Assembly (NCBI RefSeq): GCF_038432375.1
Contig: NZ_JBCAUS010000006.1
Span: forward strand, 248,001-312,000
Reading direction: 5' to 3'
DNA length: 64,000 nucleotides
DNA from: Methanococcoides sp. LMO-2
Lineage (GTDB): Archaea > Halobacteriota > Methanosarcinia > Methanosarcinales > Methanosarcinaceae
Part shown: positions 7,270 through 30,963 of the stretch, piece by piece
Position numbering within the stretch: the stretch's first letter is position 1
Layout of the letters: each line of letters starts with the position of its first letter
The notes under the pieces: generated by a model
Seen by the model: the letters and a program-made list of their open reading frames with translations, nothing else
Told to the model about the DNA's origin: nothing
The model's database searches: none
Program-made: the position numbers and the translations under genes

Positions 7270-8264
7270 GTTCAGAGATGAGAGTCAGGGAAATTGGTCC
7301 TGATGAATACGAACTCTGGGATGAGATGGTTGAAATTTCCCCATACGGAACAATATTCCAGAAAAGCAATTGGTTAACAATATGCAAGGATTCGTTCAAC
7401 TTCGACCTGAAAATGTATGGCTGTTTTCATAAAGACGAGTTGGTCGGAGGATGCTCCCTTTTTAGTTACAGGGTTAGAAGAATATTCAGGGTAGCATCAT
7501 CTTACTGCAACATGACCCCCTATGGAGGCATTCTGGTAAAAAGATCAGCAAGTAAGAAAGTAAGAAATCAAGAAGAGTTCCAAAACAATGTTTTGAAGAA
7601 TATCCTGAAACACATCGAAGAACAGGGATATGATAGTGTTTCGATATCAAATCCCCCTGATTTCATAGACACCAGGCAATTTTCATCCAATAAGTGGATC
7701 AAAGATATTAGGTATTCTTACTATTTTGACCTGAGGGAGGATATTGAAACAAGAATGCCAAAGGGATTGAAGGCGATTATTCGTAAGGCTAATGAAAATG
7801 GGATCCTGGTTAAAAAAGAGGATGACCTCCAGCGTTTTTACGAGCTTATTAACCAAACGTATGAAAGGCAACAACTAATACCACCTGCACAAATGAATTT
7901 TTATGAAAAAATAATGGATTTCTTACATAAAACCCATCAAGGGGAAATGTGGATTGCAGAAATGCCCACAGGAGAAGTTGTAGCCGCAGAAATAATCATT
8001 TGGGATAACAAAAGAGCCCATAGATGGGCAGCTACTTCAAATCCGGATCTGAAAAGCCATAATGCAACATCTCTATTACTGCACAATATTTTTCAGGATC
8101 TTAAGAGCAGAAACTTTAAAGAGATAAATTTAATGAGTGGTAATACCCCAAAACTGACTAAATTCATAACAGGATTTAATCCGGAATTGGTACCTTACTA
8201 CGTAGTAAGCAGACATTCAACAAAATTTGATGTATCCCTACATATAATAAATTATATTAGATGA
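7266..8264 (+). CDS. FemAB/GNAT-like acyltransferase
   Basis: Product of 332 residues. The ATG at 7266 overlaps the preceding stop by four bases and begins MSSEMRVREIGPDEYELWDE; an in-frame upstream start at 7224 would lie inside the deacetylase gene and is rejected. The protein shows the double-GNAT layout of the FemAB/peptidoglycan-bridge family: an N-terminal half with the PYGTIFQKSNWL region and a C-terminal half with AAEIIIWDNKRAHRWAA. Family members transfer aminoacyl or acyl groups to amino sugars. Paired with a deacetylase, it could acylate the freed amine; this is inference. It converges on the flippase gene with only an oligo-T stretch (8267-8285) between them, which probably serves as terminator. 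Confidence 0.75.
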   Translation: MSSEMRVREIGPDEYELWDEMVEISPYGTIFQKSNWLTICKDSFNFDLKMYGCFHKDELVGGCSLFSYRVRRIFRVASSYCNMTPYGGILVKRSASKKVRNQEEFQNNVLKNILKHIEEQGYDSVSISNPPDFIDTRQFSSNKWIKDIRYSYYFDLREDIETRMPKGLKAIIRKANENGILVKKEDDLQRFYELINQTYERQQLIPPAQMNFYEKIMDFLHKTHQGEMWIAEMPTGEVVAAEIIIWDNKRAHRWAATSNPDLKSHNATSLLLHNIFQDLKSRNFKEINLMSGNTPKLTKFITGFNPELVPYYVVSRHSTKFDVSLHIINYIR

Positions 8265-8275
8265 AATATTTTTTC

Positions 8276-9724
8276 TTATTTTTTTGCTGCATTTATAGCA
8301 CCTAGTAATTTAGACCTTAGAGTATGATCCAGATAGATCACTACAATATAATAAGCAATTGAAAGCACCATGGAAAGGAATAAAATTACATATATTGTAG
8401 CTGAAAGGTAATCAACTAGGACCAAAGGGATGGAAACTAAAATTGCGATAAGCAGATATTTTACAAAATGTCTGACCTCATGTGTCAATTGAACACCAGA
8501 TATTCTTAAAAGATAGAAATTTGCACAGCTCCATAAAATAACACCAACAATGGACAATAACATAAGTCCGAGGATTGGGTCATTATAACTTCCCCCTATA
8601 AAAAGTGTAATAAATATTGAACAAATGATCAGGATATTAAAAATAAGTTCAATATTTTGCTTTTCAAGTATGTCGAAAATGGAAGATATCGGGGAATACA
8701 TAAATCTTATAAATAGCCAAGGAGCAAGTATTTTTGCATAAATTCCTGCAGAATACCACTCAGCCCCTAAAAAGAAGGTGAACAGGTCCTCACCGACGAT
8801 CATAAACACGATAAGTGGAAATGCCCCTATGAGAATCAATTTCCTGTGTACTTCAGTCACTAATTCTTTGAAGTTTCCATTTTCATTTTTAACTTCACTT
8901 GCTTTCTGGAAGAAGACCTGACTGGTAGCACCACCTATTAAAGTTACAGGCAAAGCCAGTATTAAATTCGCAAACGAATAATGGCCCACTATTGCAGAAG
9001 TGAAATAGAACGCAAGCATAAAAGGTGGAAGCTGAAAAGAGAACGTGTTTACAAACAGAGAGCCCATGGAAAATTTCGGGAATCTTTTATACCTAATGGC
9101 CAGTTCTTTCATCCTGTGCACTGAAACCTTCCTGAAATACTGGATATCAGATTTGAAGTAGCCCAGCATCAGGATATTTGCCAGAAAAAAACCTGTCAAG
9201 TAACCAGTGATCAAGCCCATTGGAGAAGGATTGTAAGATCCGATCCCTACCTGGGACACTCTTGAACCTAATGAATTTGCAATACGTGATTCGGCAACAA
9301 CCCCAAACCGGATCCTGCGAGATGTCCAATAGTTCAGCACGTTGAACAGGCCACTTAAAAAAACGACTATCGGCAAAAGAAGAAGATAATCTGCAAGATC
9401 AGGAGTATTTAAGAAACCTGAGATCTCATCAGATAGCGGGATGAATATGAGTCCGGATGCAATAGAAGTGATTACTAATAAAATGAAACATAACGAAACA
9501 ATATTTGCAGAATCCTCGTTCTTTTTAGGGAGCATTATTGCAAGGTGATAAGTAAGACAGGATATAATTGCAATAATACTTGCAATTGATAAAAATAACT
9601 GAAAAACTCCAAAATCTTCCGGAGAATAAAGTCGGGAAATAATAGGAAAAAGTAATATTCCAATAATTTGGGCGATCATACTCCCTGATACTAATTTCAT
9701 AATATTACGGATAAAATCTGACAT
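8276..9724 (-). CDS. Wzx-type polysaccharide flippase (MATE/MOP superfamily)
   Basis: Product of 482 residues with about 12-14 hydrophobic segments across its whole length and the N-terminal pattern SGSMIAQIIGILLFPIISRL plus LYSPEDFGVFQLFLS, typical of O-antigen/teichoic-acid flippases. It would move a lipid-linked saccharide from the inner to the outer face of the membrane. It is the last gene of the minus-strand glycan cluster. The stop is TAA in a T-rich stretch that also fits an archaeal terminator. Confidence 0.9.
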   Translation of the reverse strand: MSDFIRNIMKLVSGSMIAQIIGILLFPIISRLYSPEDFGVFQLFLSIASIIAIISCLTYHLAIMLPKKNEDSANIVSLCFILLVITSIASGLIFIPLSDEISGFLNTPDLADYLLLLPIVVFLSGLFNVLNYWTSRRIRFGVVAESRIANSLGSRVSQVGIGSYNPSPMGLITGYLTGFFLANILMLGYFKSDIQYFRKVSVHRMKELAIRYKRFPKFSMGSLFVNTFSFQLPPFMLAFYFTSAIVGHYSFANLILALPVTLIGGATSQVFFQKASEVKNENGNFKELVTEVHRKLILIGAFPLIVFMIVGEDLFTFFLGAEWYSAGIYAKILAPWLFIRFMYSPISSIFDILEKQNIELIFNILIICSIFITLFIGGSYNDPILGLMLLSIVGVILWSCANFYLLRISGVQLTHEVRHFVKYLLIAILVSIPLVLVDYLSATIYVILFLSMVLSIAYYIVVIYLDHTLRSKLLGAINAAKK

Positions 9725-9790
9725 TGAATCACACCCATTTTAGAATAATACAACAATGAATCAATATGATTTATAGAAGGTACACTAAAT

Positions 9791-10855
9791 TTAGCTGGAG
9801 CCCTCAAGCACAGAGCATATTCTTTCACAGGCATCTCCGGATCCGAACACGTTACCTTTCATACCTGAACCTTCAAACCCATTAATAGCATCCATAATCA
9901 TATTGCAATCTGATCCAACTAGCACATTCCATCCATCATTCACGGTTTCTACCCATTCGGTATTATCACGCATTGTAATACAGGGAACACCAAGCATATA
10001 GGCTTCCTTCTGGATTCCACCGGAGTCAGTAAGAACCTTCCTGGAATTGGACATGAGTTTTAGCATGTCAAGATAACCAACAGGAGATATGACACTCACA
10101 TTTTCACAAAGATTATCCCAAAGTCCATATTTAATGAGATATTTTTTAGTCCGGGGATGAACAGGAAAAACAACATGTTCATCCACACTGCAAAAGGCTT
10201 TCACAATGGAAGATAGATTTTCAATGCTATCCGTATTTGAAGCACGGTGTACAGTTGCAACCATAAAATCCTTAGGAGAAAGCTCCAGATCATCAAGTAT
10301 CGAGGATCCTTCTTCTGCTATCCTTATATTGTACTGCAGTGCATCCATCATCACGTCACCAACATTGTATACGCCTTCAGTAATGCCTTCGTTTCCAAGA
10401 TTTATCACTGCTGTTTCCGTAGGACAGAACAAAATATCTGAAATATGGTCCGTAACTACGCGATTGATCTCTTCTGGCATAGTTCTGTCAAACGAGCGAA
10501 GACCGGCCTCGACGTGAGACACAGGAATATGACGCTTGGAGGCTGCAAGAGAACCTGCAATAGTAGAGTTGGTATCACCATAAACCAGGACCATATCAGG
10601 CTCTTCACTAATGAGAATCTTTTCGATCCCGATCAGCATATTACCTGTTTGCTCACCCTGTGTAGCGGAACCGATACCAAGATTATGATCCGGTTCCGGA
10701 ATGCCAAGTTCTTTGAAGAAAACATCAGACATATCAGGATCATAATGTTGCCCGGTGTGGACAAGTATCTCATCGTGAGATTTTCTAAGTTCACGGGAAA
10801 GTGGAGCACATTTTATGAACTGTGGCCTGGCACCGATAACGGATATTATTTTCAT
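9791..10855 (-). CDS. wecB: UDP-N-acetylglucosamine 2-epimerase (non-hydrolysing)
   Basis: Product of 354 residues starting MKIISVIGARPQFIKCAPLS, the family signature. The ATG at 10855 has GGGTGTC upstream; the longer in-frame start at 10906 adds a non-conserved tail. Further motifs: VHTGQHYD, VYGDTNST, HVEAGLRS, the PEEINR loop, TVHRASN and TDSGGIQKEA. It interconverts UDP-GlcNAc and UDP-ManNAc in the cytosol, feeding mannosaminuronate or related sugars into surface glycans. No UDP-ManNAc dehydrogenase (WecC) lies in the window, so the downstream enzyme must be encoded elsewhere. Confidence 0.93.
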   Translation of the reverse strand: MKIISVIGARPQFIKCAPLSRELRKSHDEILVHTGQHYDPDMSDVFFKELGIPEPDHNLGIGSATQGEQTGNMLIGIEKILISEEPDMVLVYGDTNSTIAGSLAASKRHIPVSHVEAGLRSFDRTMPEEINRVVTDHISDILFCPTETAVINLGNEGITEGVYNVGDVMMDALQYNIRIAEEGSSILDDLELSPKDFMVATVHRASNTDSIENLSSIVKAFCSVDEHVVFPVHPRTKKYLIKYGLWDNLCENVSVISPVGYLDMLKLMSNSRKVLTDSGGIQKEAYMLGVPCITMRDNTEWVETVNDGWNVLVGSDCNMIMDAINGFEGSGMKGNVFGSGDACERICSVLEGSS

Positions 10856-10965
10856 GATGACACCCATGTTGACAAAAAAATTGGCAATGTAATAGAGATT
10901 ATGCATTTATTTAGATTTAAAAGTATCATTATTGTGCATTGAGAAGTACTGCAATATAATTCCAG

Positions 10966-11538
10966 TTATGAATTTTCTTCTTTCACCAGTAGATCTTCGG
11001 AACCTTTGTCGCTTATTTTTCTAGCCGGAACACCCGCAATTGAAATATTTGTTCCCAAAAATGATTTATTTACAACAGAATTTGCACCAATTGCAATTCC
11101 ATCCGCGATCTCTATGTCACCAAATAACTTGGCACCCGGACCAATATAAACATTGTTTCCAATACGAGGTGCTAAATTTGAATAGCCTGCCTTGGTCCCG
11201 ATGTTTACACATGTGTGTATTCGACAATTCGATCCAACTCTGGCATTGGTATTTACAACAATGGTCCCAACATGAGCAATGCTTAAACCAGGCCCAAAAA
11301 CATTCTTAGGTATGGTGAATCCCAATTTCACGCTCATTGCATAGTACCTCCATTTTAGAAATAGGACATATGGTTTCCAGAATATAAATTTTTTACAATT
11401 GTGATAGTATTCTACTTTCCTTAACAATCTCTCAAATTTCCATATATCATCAGCAAAAAAAGGCCTTTTACCAGTTCTCCCCAAAGCCACCTTATCTGCT
11501 TCTAAATAGGAATGATAATCCTGTTTTGTTTTGATCAT
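10966..11538 (-). CDS. Hexapeptide-repeat acetyltransferase (serine acetyltransferase/colanic-acid type)
   Basis: Product of 190 residues. The C-terminal half (about residues 85-175) shows left-handed beta-helix hexapeptide repeats: IAHVGTIVVNTNARVGSNCR, then INIGTKAG-like and IGNNVYIGPGAKLFG turns. The ATG at 11538 has GGTGG five bases upstream; an alternative ATG at 11550 would overlap that site. Members O-acetylate sugars or serine using acetyl-CoA. Placed between WecB and a glycosyltransferase, sugar acetylation is the likelier role. Confidence 0.8.
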   Translation of the reverse strand: MIKTKQDYHSYLEADKVALGRTGKRPFFADDIWKFERLLRKVEYYHNCKKFIFWKPYVLFLKWRYYAMSVKLGFTIPKNVFGPGLSIAHVGTIVVNTNARVGSNCRIHTCVNIGTKAGYSNLAPRIGNNVYIGPGAKLFGDIEIADGIAIGANSVVNKSFLGTNISIAGVPARKISDKGSEDLLVKEENS

Positions 11539-11619
11539 CACAACCACCATTGTGTGAGGGGGTCCGAATTGTTATCGGAAATACCAATACAATTCGAAAT
11601 AATACAACATGCTCAACGC

Positions 11620-12795
11620 TCACAGATCTTCCAAAATTCCGGATTTTAGTACAATCTGTTCCCAATCAAATTCTTTTGCTAATATCTTGTTGTTCTGAGA
11701 CATTTCTGTACGCAACTCGGGATCACTAAACAAATACTCCACTCTGTCAGCCAGACTTTTAGGATTACCGGACTCATATTTCACATAATTGACATTTTCT
11801 TTCAAATGTCCGGGAATTCCTTCAATATCTGCAATTACCATTGGTTTCCCTGCTGCAAGATATTCGGATATTTTTCTATTCGAGAAAAAATCCTTCAATT
11901 TTGACATGTAAAAATCTTTATTGTACGGAACAATACAAACATCCATCCGTTTTAATATTGCCATTACTGAACTGTATTCAAGACGACCGGTCAGAATTAC
12001 ATTTTCCTTTTGACCATACTTTGCGAAGATTTTCTTATAATCGTAACCCTGCCCAACGATCACAACAACCACATCTTTCAGATAATCAACTGAATCACAA
12101 ATATCATCTATTTTCATTACCTGTTCCCAGTTTCCGATAAAACCTATAACTTTCTTACTTTTCGGAATATCCAGAGGACACTCAGAGTCATTAGATTCGA
12201 TTTTTCCCACATCGACCCCGTTTGGCAGATAAATACACTTATGAGCATATTCTTTAATCTGCTCTTTTACACCGGCACTTACCACAATAATCCTGTCAGA
12301 ATTCTTCAAAAGCACCCTTTCAGAGAATTTAGCGATATAGCCTCTTAAAATACGTTTTCGTTGATACAGTTCAAGATGGTACTTACCATGAAAATCATAG
12401 TATATCTTTGTATTAAGCAGTCTTAAAAATGGATACAATACAATACAGTCATAACCCCTGATGATAACGTAATCGATCTTTTTCGTAAGAAGGAAATGAA
12501 ATACTTTCATGGACATCTGGAATCTAAATGAAATTCCTTTCAACAGAGACAATTTCCCCGCAATAGGTATAATGGGTTTAACCTGAATAAGATTCTCCAG
12601 AACTACTTCGTTCTGTTCGTTCTTCTGCAACATTAAGTAAGTATCGGGCAAATATTTTTTGAGCTCCTGGAAAACATGCAAAGCTCTTGAGGACTGGACG
12701 ATGCTATAAGATGCCTTCGTCTCCATAAAAATGATCAGACCTTTTTTCGAGATCTGTTTCTGATCATTCCCGAACGATCGCCTTGAAGATTTCAT
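11620..12795 (-). CDS. Glycosyltransferase family 4 protein
   Basis: Product of 391 residues with the GT-B fold layout of family 4. The C-terminal half has the nucleotide-sugar site: VIGFIGNWEQVMKIDDI, an ILTGRL segment, and a region SEYLAAGKPMVIADIEGIP in place of the usual EAMA-G-PVVA motif. The ATG at 12795 overlaps the stop of the gene before it (ATGA), supporting this start and coupled translation. It probably adds one sugar to a lipid-linked oligosaccharide on the cytoplasmic face; donor and acceptor cannot be read from sequence. Confidence 0.85.
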   Translation of the reverse strand: MKSSRRSFGNDQKQISKKGLIIFMETKASYSIVQSSRALHVFQELKKYLPDTYLMLQKNEQNEVVLENLIQVKPIIPIAGKLSLLKGISFRFQMSMKVFHFLLTKKIDYVIIRGYDCIVLYPFLRLLNTKIYYDFHGKYHLELYQRKRILRGYIAKFSERVLLKNSDRIIVVSAGVKEQIKEYAHKCIYLPNGVDVGKIESNDSECPLDIPKSKKVIGFIGNWEQVMKIDDICDSVDYLKDVVVVIVGQGYDYKKIFAKYGQKENVILTGRLEYSSVMAILKRMDVCIVPYNKDFYMSKLKDFFSNRKISEYLAAGKPMVIADIEGIPGHLKENVNYVKYESGNPKSLADRVEYLFSDPELRTEMSQNNKILAKEFDWEQIVLKSGILEDL

Positions 12796-14708
12796 TGAAC
12801 TGCCTCATAGATATCAATTGCTGAGTTTGAATAGACCTTGTTGTTGGCCTTCAAATTTGAATTTAAGTAGCCCCATTCTAAACTATCATCCCCTCTGATC
12901 ATAGTCCTATCAAATAATAGTCCTCTATCTAACTCTTCATTTCTCAAAATGAAATAACCATCTGTGACAGTAAAATTTGTAACATCGAAGGAATCAATTC
13001 TATAATACTTAATCCCAAGGTTGTCGGTTTCACTAAATCTGCGATTCTCAAATAACCTGGAAGTAGGAGTATCCGTATATAATATTGAGTTATCCGGAAC
13101 GGAATCAAAAACATGGTCAAAACCTATCAGCTCATCTGAATAGAAATAGGTCCTGCTGGCAATAACCTCATCATATTCCGGACTGCCGCCTATCAAAGAC
13201 GGATATACGAATCCCGTCAAAAGGATTGAGATTATCAAACCGGCATACAAGACCCTTTTCCCCTTTGATGACAGATAATTGTAAAAAAAGAGAATGCCAG
13301 CAGCCATTGAAAAAGCTATGAATGGACTTACAAGTAAAATAAAACGGTCAAATCTAAAAAGGGTCATTACATCCCAGAGAGTTTGTAGCGGATTTGGCAG
13401 ATATAGTGGTAAGGAAAACAGAGTAACCATAGTAAAAACTGCAGCGTATTTATTACCATATTTCCAGAACATTGCCCCAATTCCAATAAAAACAAAGAAT
13501 GTGACGATCATCGTGTCAACATTTTGAGAGAGAAATATCCACTCTAACCCAGTCTGAATGTCCTGCTTTATTGTAAGTTCACCAGATATATGGGTCGCCC
13601 TGGAGGTCAATGCAAGAAATGTAAAGGAATAAGCAACATAAAACCAATAGGTTAAGAACGTTACAGTTAGTAAAAGAATGTAATTGTTATCGTGGAATTT
13701 GGATTTTAGACCCGTCAAATTGGTTAACAAAAGTTCAGAAACTAAGAACAATATCATTATGGCAATTATCTGAGGAGTTGACACCTGATGAACAATTACT
13801 ATAAAGCTGGCAACAACTACGCCCAGTATTTTCAATCGAGAATCATTCATCTCTGAATTCTTATAGATCAGATATATCAGCATTAAAAACGCAACAAATG
13901 CTGCAACTCTGGTGACCATATACATCCCATAATAAACTACTATACTCAGGGTTGAAAACAGAGCAACTGAAAGTAAAGACAATTTTACGTATTTAGTAGT
14001 GCTTAAAAAAATGCAGTATAAGAAAAGCACTACAACTGTGAATACTAAAGGAGCTACTACAAAAAATGCTGTCGTGATATTCAGATTTAGCAGATATGAA
14101 GTCTCCGATATCAGAATATGAAATAAAGGAAAATTCGTATAGGTTACACTTAGATATTCAGGGATTGTGTGCCCGGTAAGATAGGTTACCTGAGACATGA
14201 AAAGATGTGGTAATATGTCAGTGGCACCATAATAAAGATGGTCCTTTAAGGTAAAACTATAGATCAAATTCACCATGCATAGAATGATTTCAGATAGAAC
14301 CAGATATTGATTTACTCCTTTAGAGAGAATCTGGACAAAAATAATCGTATAAAGTAAAGTCATCATTACAAAATAGTACCAGGGCCTGACTGATGAAATA
14401 AGTACAACGACCAAACTCAAAGCATAAAGAATGAAGAATATGCTAGATAATTGCCTTTGCTCAAGTTTCATTTCAAGATCGGAACTTGGAATTTTCGTTC
14501 CACTCCCATATATTCTGGTCAGCGCTATTGCTGCAACAATACCCGGAATTGCTATAGCAAGACCCCTGATAGCAAAATCGGGCCTCCCTATCACAAACGC
14601 AAAACCCAAACCTCCAAGAACAACAACAACTACTAGATAGGGCCAGATAAGACCAAAAATTTCAATCAGCGTTTTGTCCCTGTTTGTTATTGATCTTAAT
14701 AAGTTCAT
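12792..14708 (-). CDS. Large polytopic membrane protein of the glycan locus (GT-C-like, function unassigned)
   Basis: Product of 638 residues. The ATG at 14708 has GGGTG just upstream; the longer start at 14750 has no ribosome binding site. About 12-13 hydrophobic helices fill residues 15-520, followed by a roughly 110-residue extracytoplasmic tail with alternating strands (SILYTDTPTSRLFENRRFSE). This architecture resembles GT-C transferases such as PMT-type enzymes or polysaccharide polymerases, but I see no definite catalytic motif. A sugar polymerase (Wzy-like) or a lipid-phosphosugar-dependent glycosyltransferase are both possible. The coding sequence is notably A+T-rich. Confidence 0.7.
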   Translation of the reverse strand: MNLLRSITNRDKTLIEIFGLIWPYLVVVVVLGGLGFAFVIGRPDFAIRGLAIAIPGIVAAIALTRIYGSGTKIPSSDLEMKLEQRQLSSIFFILYALSLVVVLISSVRPWYYFVMMTLLYTIIFVQILSKGVNQYLVLSEIILCMVNLIYSFTLKDHLYYGATDILPHLFMSQVTYLTGHTIPEYLSVTYTNFPLFHILISETSYLLNLNITTAFFVVAPLVFTVVVLFLYCIFLSTTKYVKLSLLSVALFSTLSIVVYYGMYMVTRVAAFVAFLMLIYLIYKNSEMNDSRLKILGVVVASFIVIVHQVSTPQIIAIMILFLVSELLLTNLTGLKSKFHDNNYILLLTVTFLTYWFYVAYSFTFLALTSRATHISGELTIKQDIQTGLEWIFLSQNVDTMIVTFFVFIGIGAMFWKYGNKYAAVFTMVTLFSLPLYLPNPLQTLWDVMTLFRFDRFILLVSPFIAFSMAAGILFFYNYLSSKGKRVLYAGLIISILLTGFVYPSLIGGSPEYDEVIASRTYFYSDELIGFDHVFDSVPDNSILYTDTPTSRLFENRRFSETDNLGIKYYRIDSFDVTNFTVTDGYFILRNEELDRGLLFDRTMIRGDDSLEWGYLNSNLKANNKVYSNSAIDIYEAVQ

Positions 14709-14816
14709 AAGCACCCGGTCCCCAACCTCAATACTCCTAAAATGTTTCAATTGCGTTTAGTTGATTTTCCCTGATTATAATTTGTTATGGAAAGTATATT
14801 AATTAGCACTAAGAAA

Positions 14817-15992
14817 TTATATATTACAGTTAAGATTGACATAGATGTCTGATATTTGTTCTGCTATATTCTCCCAACTATAGCGTTGTGCATGGTCAAG
14901 GATCTTATTCTCATCCCAATTTACGTCTAATGAATGAGATATTTTTTCTGCCAGATCCAGGGAATCACCGGGTTTTACAAGAAAGCCAAGATCATCGGAC
15001 GTTATAATCTCCGGAACACCGCCTACACTTGTTCCCACAAATGGCTTACCACAAGCCAGACTTTCAACCAGAACTGTGGGGTTGCCTTCATTCAGGCTTG
15101 GCAACACAAATATATCACAGGCATTCATCCAGAGAGGTACTTCATGGTGTGGTTTAAGGCCCACTATTTTCACATGATCCTGTAAATTGGAGGACAAGAT
15201 CTGTTTCTCTAATTTCTCCCTCAGTACACCATCACCCACAATATAGCACAACACATCATCCCTTTTGGAGACAACTTTTTCCATAGCTTCTATCAAGTAG
15301 GAATGGCCCTTCACTTCGCCATATGGATTCCCAACATTAAGAATGATCTTTTTGTCTTTCGACAAACCAAGTTTATCCCGGCATTCCTGTTTGTCCAGAG
15401 GATAGAACTTCTTTTGATCATAGCCATTGGGGATATGGTAGACTTTCTCCAGATCGATGCCTACATCCCCCATCAGAAAGATATCACCTTTCCTTACACG
15501 GATTATTGCATCGGACATTTGCCATGAATGAATAAATATCGGATCTTTCTCATCAATCGCTTTTTGAAATGTACCAGAAGTATGTTCAGTAATAACCACA
15601 GGCACTCCGAACTTTTTCTTAACTTCCACTGCAACTGCACCAGAAGGCCAGGTGAAATGGGCATGAATTATATCAAATTCAATGCCCTTTTTTTCCAGAA
15701 ATTTAAGAACTGCATGAGATTCAAGTTTTACCCAGAACTCCTTTTGATATTTATAAAAAAAGGGCAGATTGAAGTATTTTGGAAAGAAAACGTGAACATT
15801 GTCATAAGAGTAATCTTCAAAATGCGTCTTCCTGATATACTCCATGCCATAAGCAACAGGTGAGATTACGTAGACATTTTCGAAATGCCTGCGAATATAT
15901 TTCAATTGCTCTTTTACAAATATCTCTACAACGTAGGTATCCGAAAAGTTAGGGAAATTATTAGTCAGGATCAACAGATTTCTGAGTGACAT
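14817..15992 (-). CDS. Glycosyltransferase family 4 protein
   Basis: Product of 391 residues. The N-terminal domain has HAHFTWPSGAVAVEVKKKFG and the donor-binding domain has ILNVGNPYGEVKGHSYLIEA, VGDGVLREKL, and FVLPSLNEGNPTVLVESLAC with the paired E residues of the E-x7-E motif. These are hallmark GT4 features and suggest a retaining transferase acting in the cytosol. Its ATG shares one base with the stop of the upstream gene (TAATG), so it is co-translated with the CapK-like gene. Confidence 0.92.
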   Translation of the reverse strand: MSLRNLLILTNNFPNFSDTYVVEIFVKEQLKYIRRHFENVYVISPVAYGMEYIRKTHFEDYSYDNVHVFFPKYFNLPFFYKYQKEFWVKLESHAVLKFLEKKGIEFDIIHAHFTWPSGAVAVEVKKKFGVPVVITEHTSGTFQKAIDEKDPIFIHSWQMSDAIIRVRKGDIFLMGDVGIDLEKVYHIPNGYDQKKFYPLDKQECRDKLGLSKDKKIILNVGNPYGEVKGHSYLIEAMEKVVSKRDDVLCYIVGDGVLREKLEKQILSSNLQDHVKIVGLKPHHEVPLWMNACDIFVLPSLNEGNPTVLVESLACGKPFVGTSVGGVPEIITSDDLGFLVKPGDSLDLAEKISHSLDVNWDENKILDHAQRYSWENIAEQISDIYVNLNCNI

Positions 15993-17323
15993 TATCTCAA
16001 CTCGTTAATAACGAACTTATATTTCCCTGCCTTCGTTAATTCAATAGAATCAACAAATTCGAACTCTACATCCCATGAGGAGGATTTGGATTTTATTGCG
16101 TCCCTGATAAGAGAGAGATTGTCCGGATTGAAAGTATCTTCAACTACCAGTTTTATCAGGATCTTATCGATCTGTTTCTGAATTACCTGATAATTTCTGA
16201 TACCGTCATCGTGTTGCCAGAAGATATACATTAAGAAGTACCCATGAACCTTCTTACCTTCCGGAGTAATGAACATATCCACCGAGCGTCCCATAACCTC
16301 TTTTAATAGTTTTGATCCTCTGCCACAACCACATTTATCCTCAATAATATGGCCCATATCCCCTGTACTATACCTTATAAAAGGCATGGCATAATTGTGT
16401 AAACTTGTAGCTAGGATAGTTCCAATACCCTCTGACATCTGAGATCCATTATCATCAACAACTTCCATGATGCTTCGCTCTGTATCGATATGCAGGCCAT
16501 TATGTTCAGAGCATTCATATGCACCCACCCCACCATCGTTCAGTCCGTAAGCATCATAGACCTCACAGTCGAAAACATCACTGATATGAGCACGCATATT
16601 CGGAAACAGTTTTTCTGCAGTCGTATAGACCACAGGAATTTTAGGCAGGTCAATACTATTTTCCTCAACAAATGATGCAAATGTATCTATGGATGAGGGA
16701 TATGCACGGATTGATTTGGGATTGAATGAGCGTATTATATTCGCATATTTGTACATGTCTTCGTTGCTCATATCAAAAGAAGATAACCTGCGAATATTGC
16801 GGGCAATTTCGTGTACTTTGTTTGTAATTCGTGAGCTACCATCAATACCAAGGGACATACCTGCCAGAAATACCATCTTATCCCCAAGTTCATAACCTCC
16901 ATATCCCCATCCGCGATAAAGCATTACTCCTGACATAAAACGATCATGTTTTAACAATCTGAATGGGAAGGGAGTACCTGTAGAACCCCCTGTGGCCAGA
17001 GAATAATATTTCATTTTGTTCAGATTAGCTGGCTTGAAGTCCTCCCAGTTCTCTCTGATGATATCTTTGTTCAAAACAGGAAGTTTCTCCAGGTCTTCCA
17101 GTTTTTTGATGTCTTCAGGTCTTAGATCCAGACTTTTGAATAATTTATGATAATAAGGAACATTATCATAAGAGAACGATATCAGCTTTCGAAGCTGAGC
17201 TTCCTGATCCGATTTCAGATCTTGATAAGAGTACCATTGTGACATGACAGCAGAATTGTACATAGATAAGAAACGATAGTCGCCCAGCATATGTGCAAAT
17301 TTGAACAATGGAACATGAAACAC
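15992..17323 (-). CDS. CapK/PaaK-like adenylate-forming enzyme
   Basis: Product of 443 residues related to phenylacetate-CoA ligase and capsule protein CapK. The P-loop is YSLATGGSTGTPF, the adenylate-binding motif lies around YDAYGLNDGGVGAYEC, and YSTGDMGHI is the conserved Asp region. These enzymes activate a carboxylic acid as an acyl-adenylate. A methanogen relative makes coenzyme F390, but the position inside a glycan cluster favours activation of an acid for modification of surface sugars. The substrate is not predictable. A cysteine-rich CGCGRGSK segment could bind zinc. Confidence 0.8.
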   Translation of the reverse strand: MFHVPLFKFAHMLGDYRFLSMYNSAVMSQWYSYQDLKSDQEAQLRKLISFSYDNVPYYHKLFKSLDLRPEDIKKLEDLEKLPVLNKDIIRENWEDFKPANLNKMKYYSLATGGSTGTPFPFRLLKHDRFMSGVMLYRGWGYGGYELGDKMVFLAGMSLGIDGSSRITNKVHEIARNIRRLSSFDMSNEDMYKYANIIRSFNPKSIRAYPSSIDTFASFVEENSIDLPKIPVVYTTAEKLFPNMRAHISDVFDCEVYDAYGLNDGGVGAYECSEHNGLHIDTERSIMEVVDDNGSQMSEGIGTILATSLHNYAMPFIRYSTGDMGHIIEDKCGCGRGSKLLKEVMGRSVDMFITPEGKKVHGYFLMYIFWQHDDGIRNYQVIQKQIDKILIKLVVEDTFNPDNLSLIRDAIKSKSSSWDVEFEFVDSIELTKAGKYKFVINELR

Positions 17324-17350
17324 AGATTAAACCCCCTTATGAGATACAAC

Positions 17351-18394
17351 TTACTTCTTAGAATAATTTTCCACAAATTCCACCATGAATTTCGTAACAT
17401 CGATCTTATCAGCTAACAGGACATCCCTTTTCTGTCTTCCTTTTTCTTTCAGATCAGGATTCTGCAATAATTCCAGTGCCTTTTCCAATGAGTCTTTACC
17501 CATCGTATTTTCATCATAGAAGTTGTAGACCAGATCATACAGTTTCTCTTCTTCGTCCGTATAGCCCCTCCCCGCGTAATCACAGAAAATCGAGTGAGTA
17601 CCCAGGACTGCACATTCTGAGGCCATGGTCGAACTGTCCCCATAAAGCAAAGTCGCATAATACAACAGATGATGGATCTTTTCCGGGGAAACACTAATCC
17701 TGTACTCCTCAAGCTCAGGAGGCAGTTCGTTTTCAGAAGTGATCAGGACACGACCGTATTCTTTTAGTTTATCAACAGCAGTAAATTTGTCTTCCAGGGT
17801 CAATGTCCTGTGACCTTTGTCATGACTTGCCTCCCAGGAAACAAATCTCAGGATAATGAAAGGATCATTCTCGGTAAGTCCGAGTTCACTGAGAATCTCC
17901 GGATCCGGAGTGAAGTAATCCGGATGAAGGTATGCCAGCTCATGATAGCCATTATATCGCACCTGTTTTTCCCCAAGATCAAGCCTGTAACATGACGGAG
18001 TGCATATAACGGATGCAAAAGGATCAGTTATCGTGTGTTCTATTTTTGCATGCTCGGTATCATCAAAAACGATGGAAGGTTTTCTGATGATCTTTCCCAC
18101 ATGAGCAACATAGGCATTTCCTACTCCGCCTATCAAAATATCAGGTTTAAATTTCCTTGCGATCCGGTACAGATTATATTCGATCTTCAGCAACTCTGTG
18201 GCTTTTGAGAATAAGGAAGGTTTTGCACTTCCAACAACATCATATTCAAATCCATATGCTTTAAGTAAATGTAAAGAAACGTCCTTATCAACCGTAGTAA
18301 TCCTACATGCGTGACCCCGTTCTTCCAGAACCCGGATAGCATTTTTGAACAAATGGATCTGGCCAGGATGTGCCATATTGAATAATATCCTCAT
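17351..18394 (-). CDS. DUF354 family protein (glycosyltransferase-like)
   Basis: Product of 347 residues beginning MRILFNMAHPGQIHLFKNAI. The ATG at 18394 overlaps the preceding gene's TGA by four bases, so the longer upstream start is rejected. The DUF354 signature includes the N-terminal HPGQ-HLF pattern, a central VFDDTEHA segment and a SSTMASECAVLGT donor-site-like motif, which resemble GT-B enzymes such as MurG and LpxB. It probably transfers a sugar or makes an activated sugar, but no member has been assigned a reaction that I can name. Confidence 0.8.
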   Translation of the reverse strand: MRILFNMAHPGQIHLFKNAIRVLEERGHACRITTVDKDVSLHLLKAYGFEYDVVGSAKPSLFSKATELLKIEYNLYRIARKFKPDILIGGVGNAYVAHVGKIIRKPSIVFDDTEHAKIEHTITDPFASVICTPSCYRLDLGEKQVRYNGYHELAYLHPDYFTPDPEILSELGLTENDPFIILRFVSWEASHDKGHRTLTLEDKFTAVDKLKEYGRVLITSENELPPELEEYRISVSPEKIHHLLYYATLLYGDSSTMASECAVLGTHSIFCDYAGRGYTDEEEKLYDLVYNFYDENTMGKDSLEKALELLQNPDLKEKGRQKRDVLLADKIDVTKFMVEFVENYSKK

Positions 18395-19161
18395 TTTCTC
18401 ACCACAGATAAAACCTTCTTCACCAGATTGACAGCCACATCCATACTGCAATATAAACCCCAATCCACCATATTCAATGACCAGCGTTCCGGATGTGCAA
18501 GAAGATAAAGGTTCTCCAGTTCACCACTTTTGATAAGATCGATCAGATCATCCGTCGTATCGGCAGTGAAATCTTCAGTCTTACCGGGGATAAAATCCCT
18601 CAAACTGTTCCTAGTACTCCAGCTTCTTCCTGTATCTGAAAAATAATTAAGTTCTGGCCCCACAGAGAGATAGGCCTCACCAATAATTCCATAATCCTTA
18701 AAGTCATAAGATTTCCAAAGGTCCCTGTTATCGTATTTTGAGAGCGGCCTTCCATGCATACAGATGGTTTTCACCTTGTAGACGTCATCAAAGTCAGCCA
18801 GATGTGCCTTGAACAATTGAACCCCCTTTTCAGGGTCACCATTTGCTTCGCTTAATGTCTCATAATGATAACCGATCTCGTGACCCATGTCACGTATCTG
18901 TTTCATTATTTCCGGCTTGAACACACTTTTTATCGATCTGAAGTAGTATGTAGCCCTGATACCCAGCTCATGCTCTATCCGTGCGGTTTCCAGTGAATGT
19001 CCCGGCATCCGGTCAACATCGTGTCGCATCAGCACAAACCTGTCAGGATGATCACCACTCATGTATTCTGCCATTGTAACAGTGGGATAATCTATGGCTA
19101 TTGCCTCACAGAGAAGTCGGAATTTACTGATAGTGAAATCATGTTCATCAATCCTCAACAT
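18391..19161 (-). CDS. Polysaccharide deacetylase-like protein
   Basis: Product of 256 residues. Motif MRHDVDRMPGHS near residue 45 matches CE4 motif 1, EIGYHYETLSE supplies the metal-binding His, and LLAHPERWS near the C terminus matches the last catalytic motif. The second His of motif 2 is not obvious. It lacks a signal peptide and is co-translated with the DUF354 gene. It is distinct in sequence from the deacetylase at 6226-7269, suggesting two different N-acetylated substrates. Confidence 0.8.
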   Translation of the reverse strand: MLRIDEHDFTISKFRLLCEAIAIDYPTVTMAEYMSGDHPDRFVLMRHDVDRMPGHSLETARIEHELGIRATYYFRSIKSVFKPEIMKQIRDMGHEIGYHYETLSEANGDPEKGVQLFKAHLADFDDVYKVKTICMHGRPLSKYDNRDLWKSYDFKDYGIIGEAYLSVGPELNYFSDTGRSWSTRNSLRDFIPGKTEDFTADTTDDLIDLIKSGELENLYLLAHPERWSLNMVDWGLYCSMDVAVNLVKKVLSVVRK

Positions 19162-22894: not shown

Positions 22895-23692
22895 ATGGCT
22901 GAAATAGGTAAAAGGATTCGAATTGAAAGGATTATGCACAGGGAAAGCAGAAACATGGTCATCATACCAATGGACCACGGAATGTCTGATGGACCCATCA
23001 GGGGAGTAATAGACATTGCAGACTCCATCAACAAGGTGGCTGAAGGCGGTGCAGACGCTGTCCTCATGCAGAAAGGAATGGTATACCACGGCCACCGCGG
23101 ATACGGCCATGACGTGGGACTCATTGTCCATATGAGCGCATCCACAGCCCTGGGTCCTGATCCAAACGACAAGGTCCTTGTATGCAAGGTCGAGGAAGCA
23201 ATGAAAATGGGTGCTGATGCAGTATCCATCCATGTGAACATCGGATCAGATACCGAAGCCGACCAGCTCAAAAAACTCGGATACGTCGCAGAACAGTGTG
23301 ACGAATGGGGAATTCCACTCCTGTCCATGATGTACCCAAGGGGTAAGAAGATCACTGACCCTCACGACCCTGAAATGGTAGCACACGCCGCCAGGGTTGG
23401 AGCAGAGCTTGGTGCAGACGTCATCAAGACCGTCTACACAGGTGATGTTGACAGCTTCAGGGACGTTGTTGATGGATGTCCGGTACCCGTGGTCATTGCA
23501 GGCGGACCAAAGACCGAAACCGATGAACAGTTCCTTGATATGATCAGCGGTGCCATGGAATCCGGTGCAAGGGGAGTCGCCATTGGCAGGAACGTTTTCC
23601 AGCATCCAACCCCCACAAAGATGACACAGGCCATCACACAGATCGTCCACAAGGGCCTTTCTGTGGAGGAAGCACTACAAACACTTAAATGA
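22895..23692 (+). CDS. aroA': 2-amino-3,7-dideoxy-D-threo-hept-6-ulosonate synthase (ADH synthase)
   Basis: Product of 265 residues of the archaeal class I (DhnA) aldolase family. [14 protein letters not shown] contains the proton-relay Asp, VLMQKGMV and VSIHVNIGS follow, and the Schiff-base Lys is in [11 protein letters not shown]. In methanogens this enzyme condenses aspartate semialdehyde with 6-deoxy-5-ketofructose 1-phosphate at the start of the DKFP route to shikimate. The next gene being 3-dehydroquinate synthase II makes this assignment firmer than plain fructose-bisphosphate aldolase. It leads a five-gene operon. Gene names in the literature vary. Confidence 0.92.
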
Positions 23693-23714
23693 TGAAGGCG
23701 AATGGCGTATACAT

Positions 23715-24857
23715 ATGAAACCAAAGACCATCTGGATCAAAGCCGACAAAGGCAACTGGGACGACCATAAGGAAAGGATTACCACCGGACTGGAATCCGG
23801 CGTTGACTATGTACTTGTGAACGCTGATGAAGTGGAAAAAGTGAGGGAGCTTGGCGACATCAAGGTCGCAGCCTTTGCCCACGATGACAAGTCCGGCGCT
23901 GACGTTGTTGTCGTCGGAAAGGGTGGAGAAGGAGACGGAACAAAGCCCCTGTCCCCTGACCCTGTAGGATCCCTTGACATGAGCACAGCCATCCGCTTAA
24001 AGGAAAAAGGCCTCACAGTAGGAGCATATGTGGTCATACAGAACAAGGCCTATGAGGAATTCGCAGCACAGATGGGAAAGGAATGTGATTTCCTGATCAT
24101 CGTAGGAACCGACTGGAAGGTCATTCCTCTTGAAAACCTCATCGCAGGCCTTCAGGAAAGCGATGTGCAGATCATTGCCGGCGTTCGTGATGCTGAAGAG
24201 GCAAAGCTCGCCCTCGAGACCATGGAACACGGCTCAGAAGGCGTCCTGCTTGACAGTGATGATCCAAATGCCATCAAGTCCACCGTTGCAGTGGCCGAGA
24301 GCTCAGGCGTTGAAGCACTGGAGCTAGTACCTGCAAAGGTCACAAAGGTCGAACCCGTGGGAATGGGTGATCGCGTTTGCGTGGACACCTGCAATATGAT
24401 GACACGCGGCGAAGGAATGCTCGTTGGCTCACAGGCAAGCGGCATGTTCCTTGTTCACTCCGAATCTGAGGAAAGCCCATACGTGGCATCCAGGCCTTTC
24501 AGGGTCAACGCAGGTGCAGTGCATGCCTACGTGAAGGTCGGTGAAAAGACCAAATACCTTTCCGAACTCAAATCCGGCGATGATGTCACCATCGTGGATG
24601 CACAGGGCAACCAGCGTGCAGGCATCGTCGGCAGGGTCAAGATAGAAAGACGCCCGCTCATGCTTGTAGAAGCAGAGGTAGAGGGCAACATAATCAAGAA
24701 CATACTCCAGAATGCCGAGACCATCAAACTCGTGGACACAAAAGGCGAACCCATCTCCATTGCAGACCTTAAGCCAGGAGATGAGGTAATGGTCAACTAC
24801 GAGGGAGGCGCACGCCACTTCGGCATGAAGGTGGAAGAAACCATCATCGAGAAATGA
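23715..24857 (+). CDS. aroB': 3-dehydroquinate synthase II
   Basis: Product of 380 residues beginning MKPKTIWIKADKGNWDDHK. This archaeal enzyme (the MJ1249 type) oxidatively deaminates and cyclises the ADH synthase product to 3-dehydroquinate with NAD. Characteristic segments include GTDWKVIPLENLIA, VGMGDRVCVDTCNMM and the C-terminal region LIKPGDEVMVNYE-like residues. It is unrelated to bacterial AroB. It lies 22 bp after ADH synthase and 3 bp before aroD. Confidence 0.95.
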   Translation: MKPKTIWIKADKGNWDDHKERITTGLESGVDYVLVNADEVEKVRELGDIKVAAFAHDDKSGADVVVVGKGGEGDGTKPLSPDPVGSLDMSTAIRLKEKGLTVGAYVVIQNKAYEEFAAQMGKECDFLIIVGTDWKVIPLENLIAGLQESDVQIIAGVRDAEEAKLALETMEHGSEGVLLDSDDPNAIKSTVAVAESSGVEALELVPAKVTKVEPVGMGDRVCVDTCNMMTRGEGMLVGSQASGMFLVHSESEESPYVASRPFRVNAGAVHAYVKVGEKTKYLSELKSGDDVTIVDAQGNQRAGIVGRVKIERRPLMLVEAEVEGNIIKNILQNAETIKLVDTKGEPISIADLKPGDEVMVNYEGGARHFGMKVEETIIEK

Positions 24858-24860
24858 GAT

Positions 24861-25562
24861 ATGGTACACATAGGTAATTTCGACCTGGATAAGAGGGCAG
24901 CCCTTGTTGCAGCCATCAACAAGGACCCTCTTACCCAGTCAAAAGCAGCTGCATCCACAGGAGCGGATATCCTTGAGATCAGGCTCGACCTGCTCGGAAT
25001 AGACACTCCTGAAACTGCAGCGAATCTGCTCAAAAAGCTTCGTTCTGACACAAAACTTCCCTGTATTGCAACCAATAGGTTACAAGCTGAGGGAGGAAAC
25101 TGGGATGGCTCTGAAGAGGACAGGATTTCCCTACTTGAAGAGATTCTGCCATTCACGGATGCCATCGATGTGGAGCTCAGCGCAGACCCGGAACTTCGTA
25201 AAAGGCTCATAAAAAGAGCAAAGGAAGCGGGAACAACGGTCATCATATCATCCCACGATTTTGAGAGAACACCTGACAAAGCGGTTATCAGGGAAATCCT
25301 TGAGCGCTCCAGGCAGGCAGGAGCGGATATAGCTAAACTTGCAGTGATGCCAAACAGCATGCAGGACGTCCTTGAGCTTCTCGAGGTCACACTAAGTGAG
25401 AGCAACGTCTGCACCATTGCAATGGGACAGCTCGGCAAACACACCCGGATAGTCGGGCCATGCTACGGTTCAAAACTTACCTATGCAAGCGTGTCAAATG
25501 CTGTTGCACCCGGACAGCTGAAAGTACACGAACTTAAGAAAGCACTGGAGATGCTTCAATGA
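24861..25562 (+). CDS. aroD: 3-dehydroquinate dehydratase, type I
   Basis: Product of 233 residues, type I TIM-barrel enzyme. ILEIRLDLLG near residue 34 binds substrate, the catalytic His is in VIISSHDFERTPD, and the Schiff-base Lys is in ADIAKLAVMPNS. Dehydrates 3-dehydroquinate to 3-dehydroshikimate. Its stop overlaps the aroE start by four bases. Confidence 0.96.
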   Translation: MVHIGNFDLDKRAALVAAINKDPLTQSKAAASTGADILEIRLDLLGIDTPETAANLLKKLRSDTKLPCIATNRLQAEGGNWDGSEEDRISLLEEILPFTDAIDVELSADPELRKRLIKRAKEAGTTVIISSHDFERTPDKAVIREILERSRQAGADIAKLAVMPNSMQDVLELLEVTLSESNVCTIAMGQLGKHTRIVGPCYGSKLTYASVSNAVAPGQLKVHELKKALEMLQ

Positions 25563-26371
25563 AACAGGTATTCGGAGTTCTTGGAGACCCCATCGCGCAC
25601 TCAATTTCACCAGTCATGCACAATGCAGCCTTCGAAGCACTGGGCATGGACTGTACATACCATGCCTTCAGGGTAGAAAAGCAGAACCTTGGCGATGCCA
25701 TAAAAGGTGCAAAGGCAATGGGATTCGGAGGACTCAACCTCACGGTCCCGTTAAAGGAGACTGCCATCGGACTCATTGAGACCGACCCGCTGGCAGCAAG
25801 GATCGGAGCTGTCAATACCATCGACTTTAAGGATGGTATCAAAGGCTACAATACCGACGGCATAGGCGCCCGGAAGACACTGGAAGATGCAGGGGTAGAT
25901 ATTGAGGATAAGAGCGTGCTGGTACTTGGTGCCGGAGGCGCCGCCAGGGCGATCGCCTTCACATTCACTGAAGCCGGTGCAAAGGTCAACATTGCCAACA
26001 GGACCCCTGAGCGGGCCATGACCCTGGCAGCCGAGGTAGGTAAGGTCAACGGCTTCGGGCTGGACGTACTGGACAGGTGCCTGGAGGACACTGACATACT
26101 AATCAATACCACCACCGTGGGAATGGACCCTAACATAGGAGATTGCATCGTTAACGCAGAGCAGATGCACTCCGACCTCACTGTTTTTGATATCGTTTAC
26201 AATCCACTCAAGACACGCCTGCTTCAGGAAGCCGAAGCTGCCGGTGCAACACCGGTCACAGGTATCATGATGCTTGTCTACCAGGGCGCAGAAGCATTCC
26301 GCATCTGGACCGGCGTGGAACCACCTGTGGACGTGATGAAAAAGGCCGCAATGGAGGCCCTGAGACTATGA
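25559..26371 (+). CDS. aroE: Shikimate dehydrogenase
   Basis: Product of 270 residues. Substrate-binding motif GDPIAHSISPVMHNAAF at the N terminus, LTVPLKE with the catalytic Lys, YNTDGIGA with the Asp, and the NADP Rossmann motif VLGAGGAARAIA near residue 122. Reduces 3-dehydroshikimate to shikimate with NADPH. Overlaps both neighbours by four bases, so translation is coupled throughout aroD-aroE-tyrA. Confidence 0.97.
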   Translation: MKQVFGVLGDPIAHSISPVMHNAAFEALGMDCTYHAFRVEKQNLGDAIKGAKAMGFGGLNLTVPLKETAIGLIETDPLAARIGAVNTIDFKDGIKGYNTDGIGARKTLEDAGVDIEDKSVLVLGAGGAARAIAFTFTEAGAKVNIANRTPERAMTLAAEVGKVNGFGLDVLDRCLEDTDILINTTTVGMDPNIGDCIVNAEQMHSDLTVFDIVYNPLKTRLLQEAEAAGATPVTGIMMLVYQGAEAFRIWTGVEPPVDVMKKAAMEALRL

Positions 26372-27693
26372 AGATGCTCATCATCGGCGGAACCGGAGGT
26401 ATGGGCCAGTGGTTCACTAAGTTCTTCCTGCATCACGGCTACGAGGTGATCGTATGGGGAAGCAGTGGCAAGACCGAGATAGCTGAACAGATGGGAGTTA
26501 AATTTGCCACAGACCTTGACAAAGAGATCGGAGAGGCAGATGTAGTTGTCATCACCGTGCCCATAGACATCACTGCAAGGGTCATCAAGGAAACCGCACC
26601 GAAAATGAAGCAGGGGAGCCTCCTCATGGACCTTACCTCCATCAAGGCCGAACCCGTCAACGCAATGAGGGAATTCGCCCCTGAAGGCGTGGAGATACTG
26701 GGAACACACCCCATGTTCGGGCCATCCATCCCGACCTTACAGGGGCAGATCGTCATAATGAGTCCCACAAAAGGACGCTGTGATAAATGGTTCCCGATCA
26801 TGCATGGACTCTTTGAGAAGAGTGGTGCACATATTGAGATCATCGATCCGGAAGAGCATGATAAGTTCGTTTCCGTGGTCCAGGGGCTTACCCATTTTGC
26901 ATACATTACTATCGGAACCACGTTCAAAAGCCTTGACTTTGACATAAGCAAGTCCCGTCGTTTCATGAGCCCGGTATACGAGATCATGGTGGATTTCGTG
27001 GGTAGGATCCTTGGTCAGAACCCGTACCTGTACGCCCATATACAGATGAAGAACGAACAGGTGCTCAATGTCCACGAGGCATTCATCAATGAATGCAACC
27101 TGCTTTCGGATATTGTCAGGGAACAGGATACCGAAGCGTTCTGCAAGAAAATGACAGATGCTGCAGCCCACTTCAAAGACACGGCATCCGCACTTCACAG
27201 GTCGGACAAGCTCATCAATTCAAAGATCGCCGAGTTCGAGGAAATGATCGCATCCGCAGGTAAAGAAAGGGGGCTCCTGCACACCTACTCCGGCGTAACA
27301 CATGTCGGTATCATCGAAAAGGTCACACCTTTGACAGTAACGCTATCAAGAGGTGACCGAACCATCGCCCTGAGGACCGAGAATGTCAGGTTGCTCACTG
27401 ATGCGGAACTGAAAAAATGGAAGATCGACACCCTGAACCATCCGGTCAGGGATATCTCCGCCCTGATACCTGCAGGAGCAGATCCGGTTACCATAGAGAA
27501 AGTGATCTCCTGCGATGAGAGGATCGTTTCTGTCAGTATTGTCGATACATACTCAGGCATATCCGATAACAGGCTCAGTATTACATACCGCATTACCATA
27601 CTCGGAGACCTCACTGCTGCAGAGGTGCAGGAAGACATCGAGGAACTGCTCCGGGGACTTGGATGCGGAATAAGAGGCCATGACCCCATCTGA
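26368..27693 (+). CDS. tyrA: Prephenate dehydrogenase with C-terminal FDX-ACB-like domain
   Basis: Product of 441 residues. Residues 1-170 form the NAD(P) domain (IGGTGGMGQWFTKFF) with the catalytic GTHPMFGP His at 114; residues 170-300 form the helical dimerisation domain including QGLTHF. It oxidatively decarboxylates prephenate to 4-hydroxyphenylpyruvate for tyrosine. Residues 300-350 form a small strand-rich linker domain. Residues about 357-441 closely resemble the ferredoxin-fold anticodon-binding (FDX-ACB) domain at the C terminus of phenylalanyl-tRNA synthetase beta: HPVRDISALIP, VDTYSG, RLSITYRIT, and the ending CGIRGHD. Archaeal TyrA C-terminal extensions are known as putative regulatory domains; the FDX-ACB likeness is my reading. 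It is the last gene of the operon. Confidence 0.92.
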   Translation: MKMLIIGGTGGMGQWFTKFFLHHGYEVIVWGSSGKTEIAEQMGVKFATDLDKEIGEADVVVITVPIDITARVIKETAPKMKQGSLLMDLTSIKAEPVNAMREFAPEGVEILGTHPMFGPSIPTLQGQIVIMSPTKGRCDKWFPIMHGLFEKSGAHIEIIDPEEHDKFVSVVQGLTHFAYITIGTTFKSLDFDISKSRRFMSPVYEIMVDFVGRILGQNPYLYAHIQMKNEQVLNVHEAFINECNLLSDIVREQDTEAFCKKMTDAAAHFKDTASALHRSDKLINSKIAEFEEMIASAGKERGLLHTYSGVTHVGIIEKVTPLTVTLSRGDRTIALRTENVRLLTDAELKKWKIDTLNHPVRDISALIPAGADPVTIEKVISCDERIVSVSIVDTYSGISDNRLSITYRITILGDLTAAEVQEDIEELLRGLGCGIRGHDPI

Positions 27694-30162: not shown

Positions 30163-30963
30163 GTGATCATTGACATATACAACCAGCTTATCAAAAAAAG
30201 GAAACTTACAGCATTGTATGTTCTTTCTGCAATAATAATAACATACTTTGCAAGCTGGTTCCCTGATTTTGAGAACCTTATCGGCATAGAGGGAGCAAGG
30301 ATAAGTTCGGTTGTATCCTTTGGCGCATTGAACGGAATGATACTTGGGCCATTCTGGGGAGCAATCGTCTCCTTTTCCGGTATAATGGGACATACGCTGA
30401 TAAGAGGAGGCACGCCGGACACGTTCCATCTGCTGACCCCTTTCTTTGTAGCACTGGCATCTGCAGTAGCAGGTCTTTGTATCACAAAGAAAGAAAAAGC
30501 TGCAATGGTAATATTCGGAATTATGATCCTGCTCTGGTACGCAACGCCCCTGGGAAGAAGTGTATATTACTACCCCTGGTTCCATATTCTAACGCTTGGA
30601 GCCTTCTTCGCCTTCAATTATAAATTAAAGGATAGGGAAGAAAGCATCTTCAAATTCATTTTCCTGCTCCTTGCGTCACTGATGGCGATCCTTGCAGACC
30701 ACCTTGCGGGCAGCATAAGTGCCACACTGCTCTTTGACCTGCCCCCGCAGATGTTCGCCTCAGTGATCATGATCTATCCCATTGAAAGAGTAACACTTGC
30801 ACTCGCCGCCGCTGCGATCATGTATCTAGTGATAATATCACTTCAGAACACGCTCATGGAATCGGAAACATACCATGACCAGGTCCGGGAGAAAAAGGAA
30901 ACTGAGATCCTGAATTATGTGGACGAAGTAAAGGGTATGCTTGAAGAGGATGATAAAAACTGA
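30163..30963 (+). CDS. Polytopic membrane protein, ECF S-component-like
   Basis: Product of 266 residues starting at GTG. About seven hydrophobic helices cover residues 15-225, then a charged cytoplasmic tail rich in Glu and Lys. The segment SVVSFGALNGMILGPFWGAI resembles substrate-specificity subunits of energy-coupling-factor transporters, where Gly-rich helices bind a vitamin. The resemblance is moderate and the substrate is unknown. It converges with the MinD-like gene, one base apart. Confidence 0.55.
   Translation: MIIDIYNQLIKKRKLTALYVLSAIIITYFASWFPDFENLIGIEGARISSVVSFGALNGMILGPFWGAIVSFSGIMGHTLIRGGTPDTFHLLTPFFVALASAVAGLCITKKEKAAMVIFGIMILLWYATPLGRSVYYYPWFHILTLGAFFAFNYKLKDREESIFKFIFLLLASLMAILADHLAGSISATLLFDLPPQMFASVIMIYPIERVTLALAAAAIMYLVIISLQNTLMESETYHDQVREKKETEILNYVDEVKGMLEEDDKN

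Follow-up and report, generated by a model that had tools for sequence, protein, structure and literature searches.

The C-terminal extension of prephenate dehydrogenase (TyrA) in Methanococcoides sp. LMO-2 carries, at about residues 351–437, a domain whose homology to the anticodon-binding domain (FDX-ACB) of bacterial phenylalanyl-tRNA synthetase (PheRS) β-subunits is strongly supported and which, judging by alignment, retains the pocket through which PheRS reads G34 of its tRNA. We put at somewhat less than an even chance (a probability of roughly 0.45) the reading that this extension tunes TyrA by binding tRNA-Tyr or tRNA-Phe, both of which bear G34, or an RNA that mimics them; we infer the RNA binding itself from the retained residues. 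Coordinates are collected in Table 1 and refer to the window, that is, the whole 64,000-nucleotide stretch of DNA that was analyzed.

Table 1. The tyrA locus: genes, TyrA domains and candidate G34-contact residues, in window coordinates
Feature	Position	Strand	Basis or remark
Shikimate-pathway run directly upstream of tyrA	22895..26371	+	ORF list and translations
Aldolase-type first enzyme of the run	22895-23692	+	Name read from translation
Archaeal dehydroquinate synthase	23715-24857	+	Name read from translation
aroD	24861-25562	+	Name read from translation
aroE	25559-26371	+	Name read from translation; overlaps tyrA start
tyrA: 441-aa prephenate dehydrogenase ending in the REG extension	26368..27693	+	Pfam PDH_N 4e-25, PDH_C 4.7e-24
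Residues 1-291, catalytic core made up of NAD-binding and dimerisation domains	26368..27240	+	Alignment to H. influenzae PDH 2pv7
Residues 296-349, small barrel of five beta strands, Sm/Hfq- or SH3-like	27253..27414	+	AlphaFold2 models, conservation
FDX-ACB domain, beta-alpha-beta-beta-alpha-beta, residues 351-437	27418..27678	+	Pfam, PDB profile search, hhalign, VIA-align
R361-D362, RD motif of FDX-ACB	27448..27453	+	D in 82/82 sequences, R in 73%
D393-T-Y395, aligned with Asp364/Phe366 of human mitochondrial PheRS and Asp729/Tyr731 of Thermus PheRS-beta	27544..27552	+	Alignment
S404, aligned with Ser375 of human mitochondrial PheRS (G34 O6 contact)	27577..27579	+	Alignment
R436, aligned with Arg414 of human mitochondrial PheRS (G34 O6/N7 contact)	27673..27675	+	Alignment

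The protein is the single TyrA of the whole genome, and its core is, by alignment, a normal prephenate dehydrogenase core, in which H114 and R213 correspond to the catalytic H200 and R297 of the Haemophilus influenzae enzyme. The NCBIfam model NF006411 matches it with 765.6 bits (cut-off 464), and because this match spans residues 1–436, the long C-terminal extension belongs to a recognised archaeal TyrA subfamily. The adjacency of aroE and tyrA recurs in 64 of 91 loci, comprising most Halobacteriota loci and no Methanococci locus. Gene neighborhood provides no link to tRNA: there are no tRNA genes inside the window, and 47 related loci yielded one tRNA only (Cys).

Elsewhere in the window, positions 6226-19161 form a low-GC stretch (about 37% versus 45–50% in the remainder) with polysaccharide genes, including those for a flippase, a UDP-GlcNAc 2-epimerase, glycosyltransferases, and FemAB-like and DUF354 proteins. 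Three large ORFs in this stretch lack a Pfam match (6226-7269, 12792-14750 and 15992-17323), as does the 266-aa product of 30163-30963, a predicted membrane protein whose gene lies between a Fae-Hps fusion gene and a gene for a ParA-type ATPase.

Several comparisons identify the C-terminal domain as FDX-ACB. A preliminary description of this DNA, made from the letters alone, had proposed such a domain at residues of about 357–441. Its identification is borne out by Pfam, profile searches, hhalign and the predicted fold, and motifs that it named are present (PVRDIS at 359–364, VDTYSG at 392–397, RLSITYRIT at 402–410 and CGIRGHD at 433–439). The boundaries need revision: the domain starts slightly earlier, at about 351, and a small barrel in front of it had been missed, so that FDX-ACB is one part of an extension beginning at about 296. 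In the LMO-2 protein, the last 91 residues match Pfam FDX-ACB (PF03147) with E = 8.9e-5 and 23.3 bits over profile positions 7–84 of 94 (hmmscan), which lies below the gathering score of 31.1, while one Methanococcal orthologue scores 40.2 bits, above it; the scan of the LMO-2 fragment gave no ACT match. Orthologues were gathered from the genus outward and then from a second phylum (the Methanococci side, via a Methanococci rRNA probe and a Methanothermococcus record). FDX-ACB matches 18 of the 25 Halobacteriota-side sequences scanned (best E = 2.4e-6), every other Pfam family matches one member only, and no ACT family matches any of the 25 at E values up to 1. On the Methanococci side, TyrA-sized frames match FDX-ACB in 24/28 genomes, with 12/28 over the gathering score.

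Searches starting from TyrA alone lead to the same family. A profile built only from TyrA sequences found the FDX-ACB of PheRS-beta as its best match in the PDB (E = 0.011), and with a broader sequence set the E value fell to 1.2e-4 and the top three matches were all PheRS. A profile-profile comparison of TyrA with five bacterial PheRS domains by hhalign gave a probability of 97.5 and E = 7.5e-12 over 78 columns. Given that PheRS-beta heads the PDB search and given the strength of the hhalign match, the resemblance is beyond chance.

The predicted structure agrees. AlphaFold2, run on 25 aligned sequences, modeled the extension with a mean pLDDT of 93.1 as a barrel of five strands that a helix links to a beta-alpha-beta-beta-alpha-beta unit. 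VIA-align ranked PheRS-beta (6oz5_D) first, with Z = 12.2 and 1.6 A over 81 residues (model residues 67–147), and the first 25 rows were all PheRS. After these came ribosomal protein S6 permutants (10.3), DUF211 proteins (9.7) and the ACT-type AcuB (8.6). The predicted fold is ferredoxin-like, as the preliminary description had expected, with PheRS-beta its nearest match. We read the matches to S6, DUF211 and metallochaperones (Z of 8–10) as reflecting the common ferredoxin fold. MscS, the top Foldseek match, was set aside: with an rmsd of 10–11 A across two domains in loose relative placement, it shows no more than a barrel-plus-ferredoxin arrangement.

The barrel itself can be named less precisely. 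Modeled alone it reached a pLDDT of 77.7, and its best structural match, archaeal Hfq (Z = 7.3), was tied with designed SH3-like and biotin-ligase barrels; from these models, the label goes no further than a small, putatively Sm/SH3-like barrel. A polar set (H305, Y307, S308, H312 and N339) is conserved on the Methanosarcinales side and partly in Methanococci, and could form a second binding site. One TyrA (L067, genome G206) has the small barrel only and no FDX-ACB, so the two parts of the extension are separable.

The residues that contact G34 in PheRS are kept in TyrA. Human mitochondrial PheRS reads G34 of tRNA-Phe by Asp364, Ser375 and Arg414, with G34 stacking on Phe366, the counterpart of Tyr731 in Thermus PheRS-beta, and the D364G substitution abolishes its activity (PMC7540514). 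Human mitochondrial PheRS was not listed in the PDB sequence search, and its residue roles are taken from that paper. Thermus PheRS-beta has D729, Y731 and S742 at the equivalent places, and both HMMER and hhalign align TyrA D393, Y395, S404 and R436 with the G34-contact columns. Across 82 TyrA sequences, a set that leaves out four Methanocella-like proteins, identity is 100% for D393, 98% for Y395 (the rest being Phe), 91% for S404 and 100% for R436. By conservation rank, all four fall within the top 14 of 88 positions and three within the top five. Among 15 PheRS-conserved columns, 5 are kept at 90% or more in TyrA, namely D362 and the four G34 contacts; the corresponding hypergeometric value of 0.004 is indicative only, as PheRS-conserved columns and contacts are not independent, five PheRS sequences were used, and the final-Arg column was added from PMC7540514 (4/5 aligned PheRS sequences end before that Arg). 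Proteins from the Methanosarcinales side and from Methanococci alike have an intact pocket, and its four residues do not vary at all in Methanococci, unlike R361 and several residues of the barrel.

Two further observations concern the distribution of these residues. In the four Methanocella-like proteins (L061–L064; the label is itself inferred), the G34 pocket is lost altogether and the fold of the extension is kept; T406, R408 and H312 were lost together with it. These proteins constitute a natural test of the pocket's role. Separately, a stray 66-residue frame in the same genus (L069; G006:C1:137141-137293, minus strand) matches the FDX-ACB part of TyrA (49% over residues 387–437) and keeps the DxY, S and R positions with the first strand absent; it is perhaps a duplicated fragment.

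The extension is widespread and sits in archaea whose own PheRS lacks this domain. Within the order, almost all genomes with a full-length TyrA match have it, and it was also found in several further families and in Methanococci; it is absent from one family of the same class (f6) and from another family (f10), is reduced to the barrel in one genome (L067), and is divergent in four others. The common architecture is suggestive of a single ancient fusion that was followed by losses or transfer. According to a review (PMC3275996), the PheRS of archaea and of the eukaryotic cytosol lacks the B8 anticodon-binding domain. Consistent with this, the 547-aa PheT of LMO-2 comprises B3/4, B5 and catalytic-like domains but lacks FDX-ACB. 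The copy on TyrA is the only one found in the genome: a genome-wide Pfam scan gave no FDX-ACB over the cut-off elsewhere, a threshold below which weak copies are possible, given that a first loose look missed TyrA itself. The presence of a bacterial-type anticodon domain in such archaea bears on how these domains moved.

Retention of the pocket suggests that the domain may still grip a guanine in a loop. The simplest candidate would be G34 of tRNA-Tyr (GUA) or tRNA-Phe (GAA), and an RNA imitating an anticodon loop would be the alternative ligand. Binding of such an RNA might raise or lower TyrA activity or locate the enzyme, and tyrosine production would thereby be tied to translation demand. 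If the pocket is so used, the anticodon of a tRNA is read by an enzyme that makes the very amino acid with which this tRNA is charged, and metabolism is joined directly to translation in a way that the literature searched does not describe. The earlier suggestion that the domain could sense tRNA thus gains specific support, in that all four G34-reading residues are kept; RNA binding itself is a step further, argued from these residues. The barrel, whose model weakly resembles Sm/Hfq, an RNA-binding fold, would point the same way. Against such a ligand, a lone anticodon-binding domain cannot by itself tell charged from uncharged tRNA, and the present data do not explain by what means contact at the anticodon could signal whether the tRNA is charged. 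The scarcity of tRNA genes in the neighborhood and the loss of the pocket in the Methanocella-like proteins also speak against it. We regard as unlikely the full form of this proposal, in which archaeal TyrA would be directly tRNA-controlled, with FDX-ACB binding tRNA-Tyr or tRNA-Phe via G34 and tyrosine flux following tRNA supply or charging. To our knowledge, no central amino-acid biosynthetic enzyme is under direct tRNA control. The slightly negative net charge of the TyrA domain is neutral as evidence; we dropped it as an argument against RNA binding because bacterial PheRS FDX-ACB domains are likewise negative (−2 to −7).

A different possibility, somewhat unlikely in our judgment, is that the extension is a small-molecule sensor, with the G34 pocket or a site on the barrel binding tyrosine, another aromatic or a guanine nucleotide for allosteric feedback. 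ACT domains on other TyrA proteins act in this way, and a site made up of a stacking aromatic side chain, an acidic residue and an arginine could accommodate either an amino acid or guanine. The 2005 survey of TyrA proteins presumes a regulatory role for the extension and finds this in keeping with the inhibition by tyrosine of the enzyme from Methanococcus maripaludis, which it cites (PMC1173090). However, tyrosine inhibition needs no extension: the H. influenzae and Aquifex aeolicus enzymes hold tyrosine in the active site, and inhibition depends on a histidine of the core (PMC2954222). Alignment to 2pv7 places H176 at this position, and because the core keeps it, tyrosine feedback is explicable without the extension; on this alignment the catalytic core alone can account for the reported inhibition. 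In addition, the fold is nearer to PheRS than to ACT, and H305, Y307 and N339 of the barrel are not retained across Methanococci. The preliminary description had also raised sensing of an aromatic amino acid through an ACT-like fold. For this we found no positive support, the ACT-type match falling well behind PheRS and the core already keeping the histidine needed for tyrosine inhibition elsewhere.

Loss of the domain in some lineages raises the possibility that FDX-ACB is a structural leftover that stabilizes the TyrA dimer or gives a protein–protein contact, with no ligand. The core still looks functional in family f6 and in the other genomes that lost the domain, L067 keeps the barrel only, and the Methanocella-like genomes, which keep the fold and lose the pocket, indicate that at least one lineage can do without the pocket. 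Yet three pocket positions are essentially invariant over the 82 sequences while other PheRS-conserved columns have drifted, a pattern that a ligand-free or partner-free role hardly explains, and we consider a leftover improbable. About as improbable is that FDX-ACB acts as a translational or processing regulator by recognizing a loop that resembles an anticodon, either in the tyrA mRNA or in another RNA, much as some synthetases control their own messages: the same pocket evidence applies as for tRNA, and tyrA closes a run of shikimate genes whose transcript could carry such a loop at its start, but no Rfam family matches in the window and the Methanococci tyrA genes, not being beside aroE, share no operon leader with it.

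Binding of a G34-bearing tRNA or mimic, the reading that we prefer, gives a more specific content to an extension that has long had a name. Archaeal TyrA C-terminal extensions were indeed already known as putative regulatory domains, as the preliminary description stated, having been named REG (COG4937) and presumed to be a regulatory fusion in 2005 (PMC1173090). Its further remark that the FDX-ACB identity had not been put to the test holds in part. The literature searched yielded no paper linking TyrA with an anticodon-binding domain, and the TyrA/FDX-ACB combination goes unmentioned in a survey of archaeal fusions from 2024. However, REG has been known since 2005, and as Methanococci members pass the Pfam threshold, the FDX-ACB label is open to anyone scanning them. 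Later COG releases, we presume, rename COG4937 as a ferredoxin-fold anticodon-binding domain. An intact G34 pocket on TyrA appears to be without a report in the literature searched.

Three known systems offer points of comparison. FDX-ACB is domain B8 of bacterial PheRS-beta and the C-terminal domain of mitochondrial PheRS, and the TyrA domain resembles these in fold and length and in having the RD motif, DxY, S and C-terminal R in register. It differs in being carried by an archaeal biosynthetic dehydrogenase, with a small barrel before it and no synthetase core, and the loop that leads from its third strand into its second helix is shorter by about six residues. TyrA-ACT proteins (Bacillus, Xanthomonas and others) likewise carry a C-terminal ferredoxin-like domain with a supposed regulatory role, but ACT is a different family, as the Pfam scan of the 25 sequences and the lower AcuB score both indicate. 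Compared with archaeal TyrA-REG (COG4937; the NF006411 and PRK08655 subfamilies), LMO-2 TyrA is a plain member; in the 2005 source REG is one undefined regulatory domain, whereas here it is split into a barrel and an FDX-ACB domain with a predicted intact anticodon pocket.
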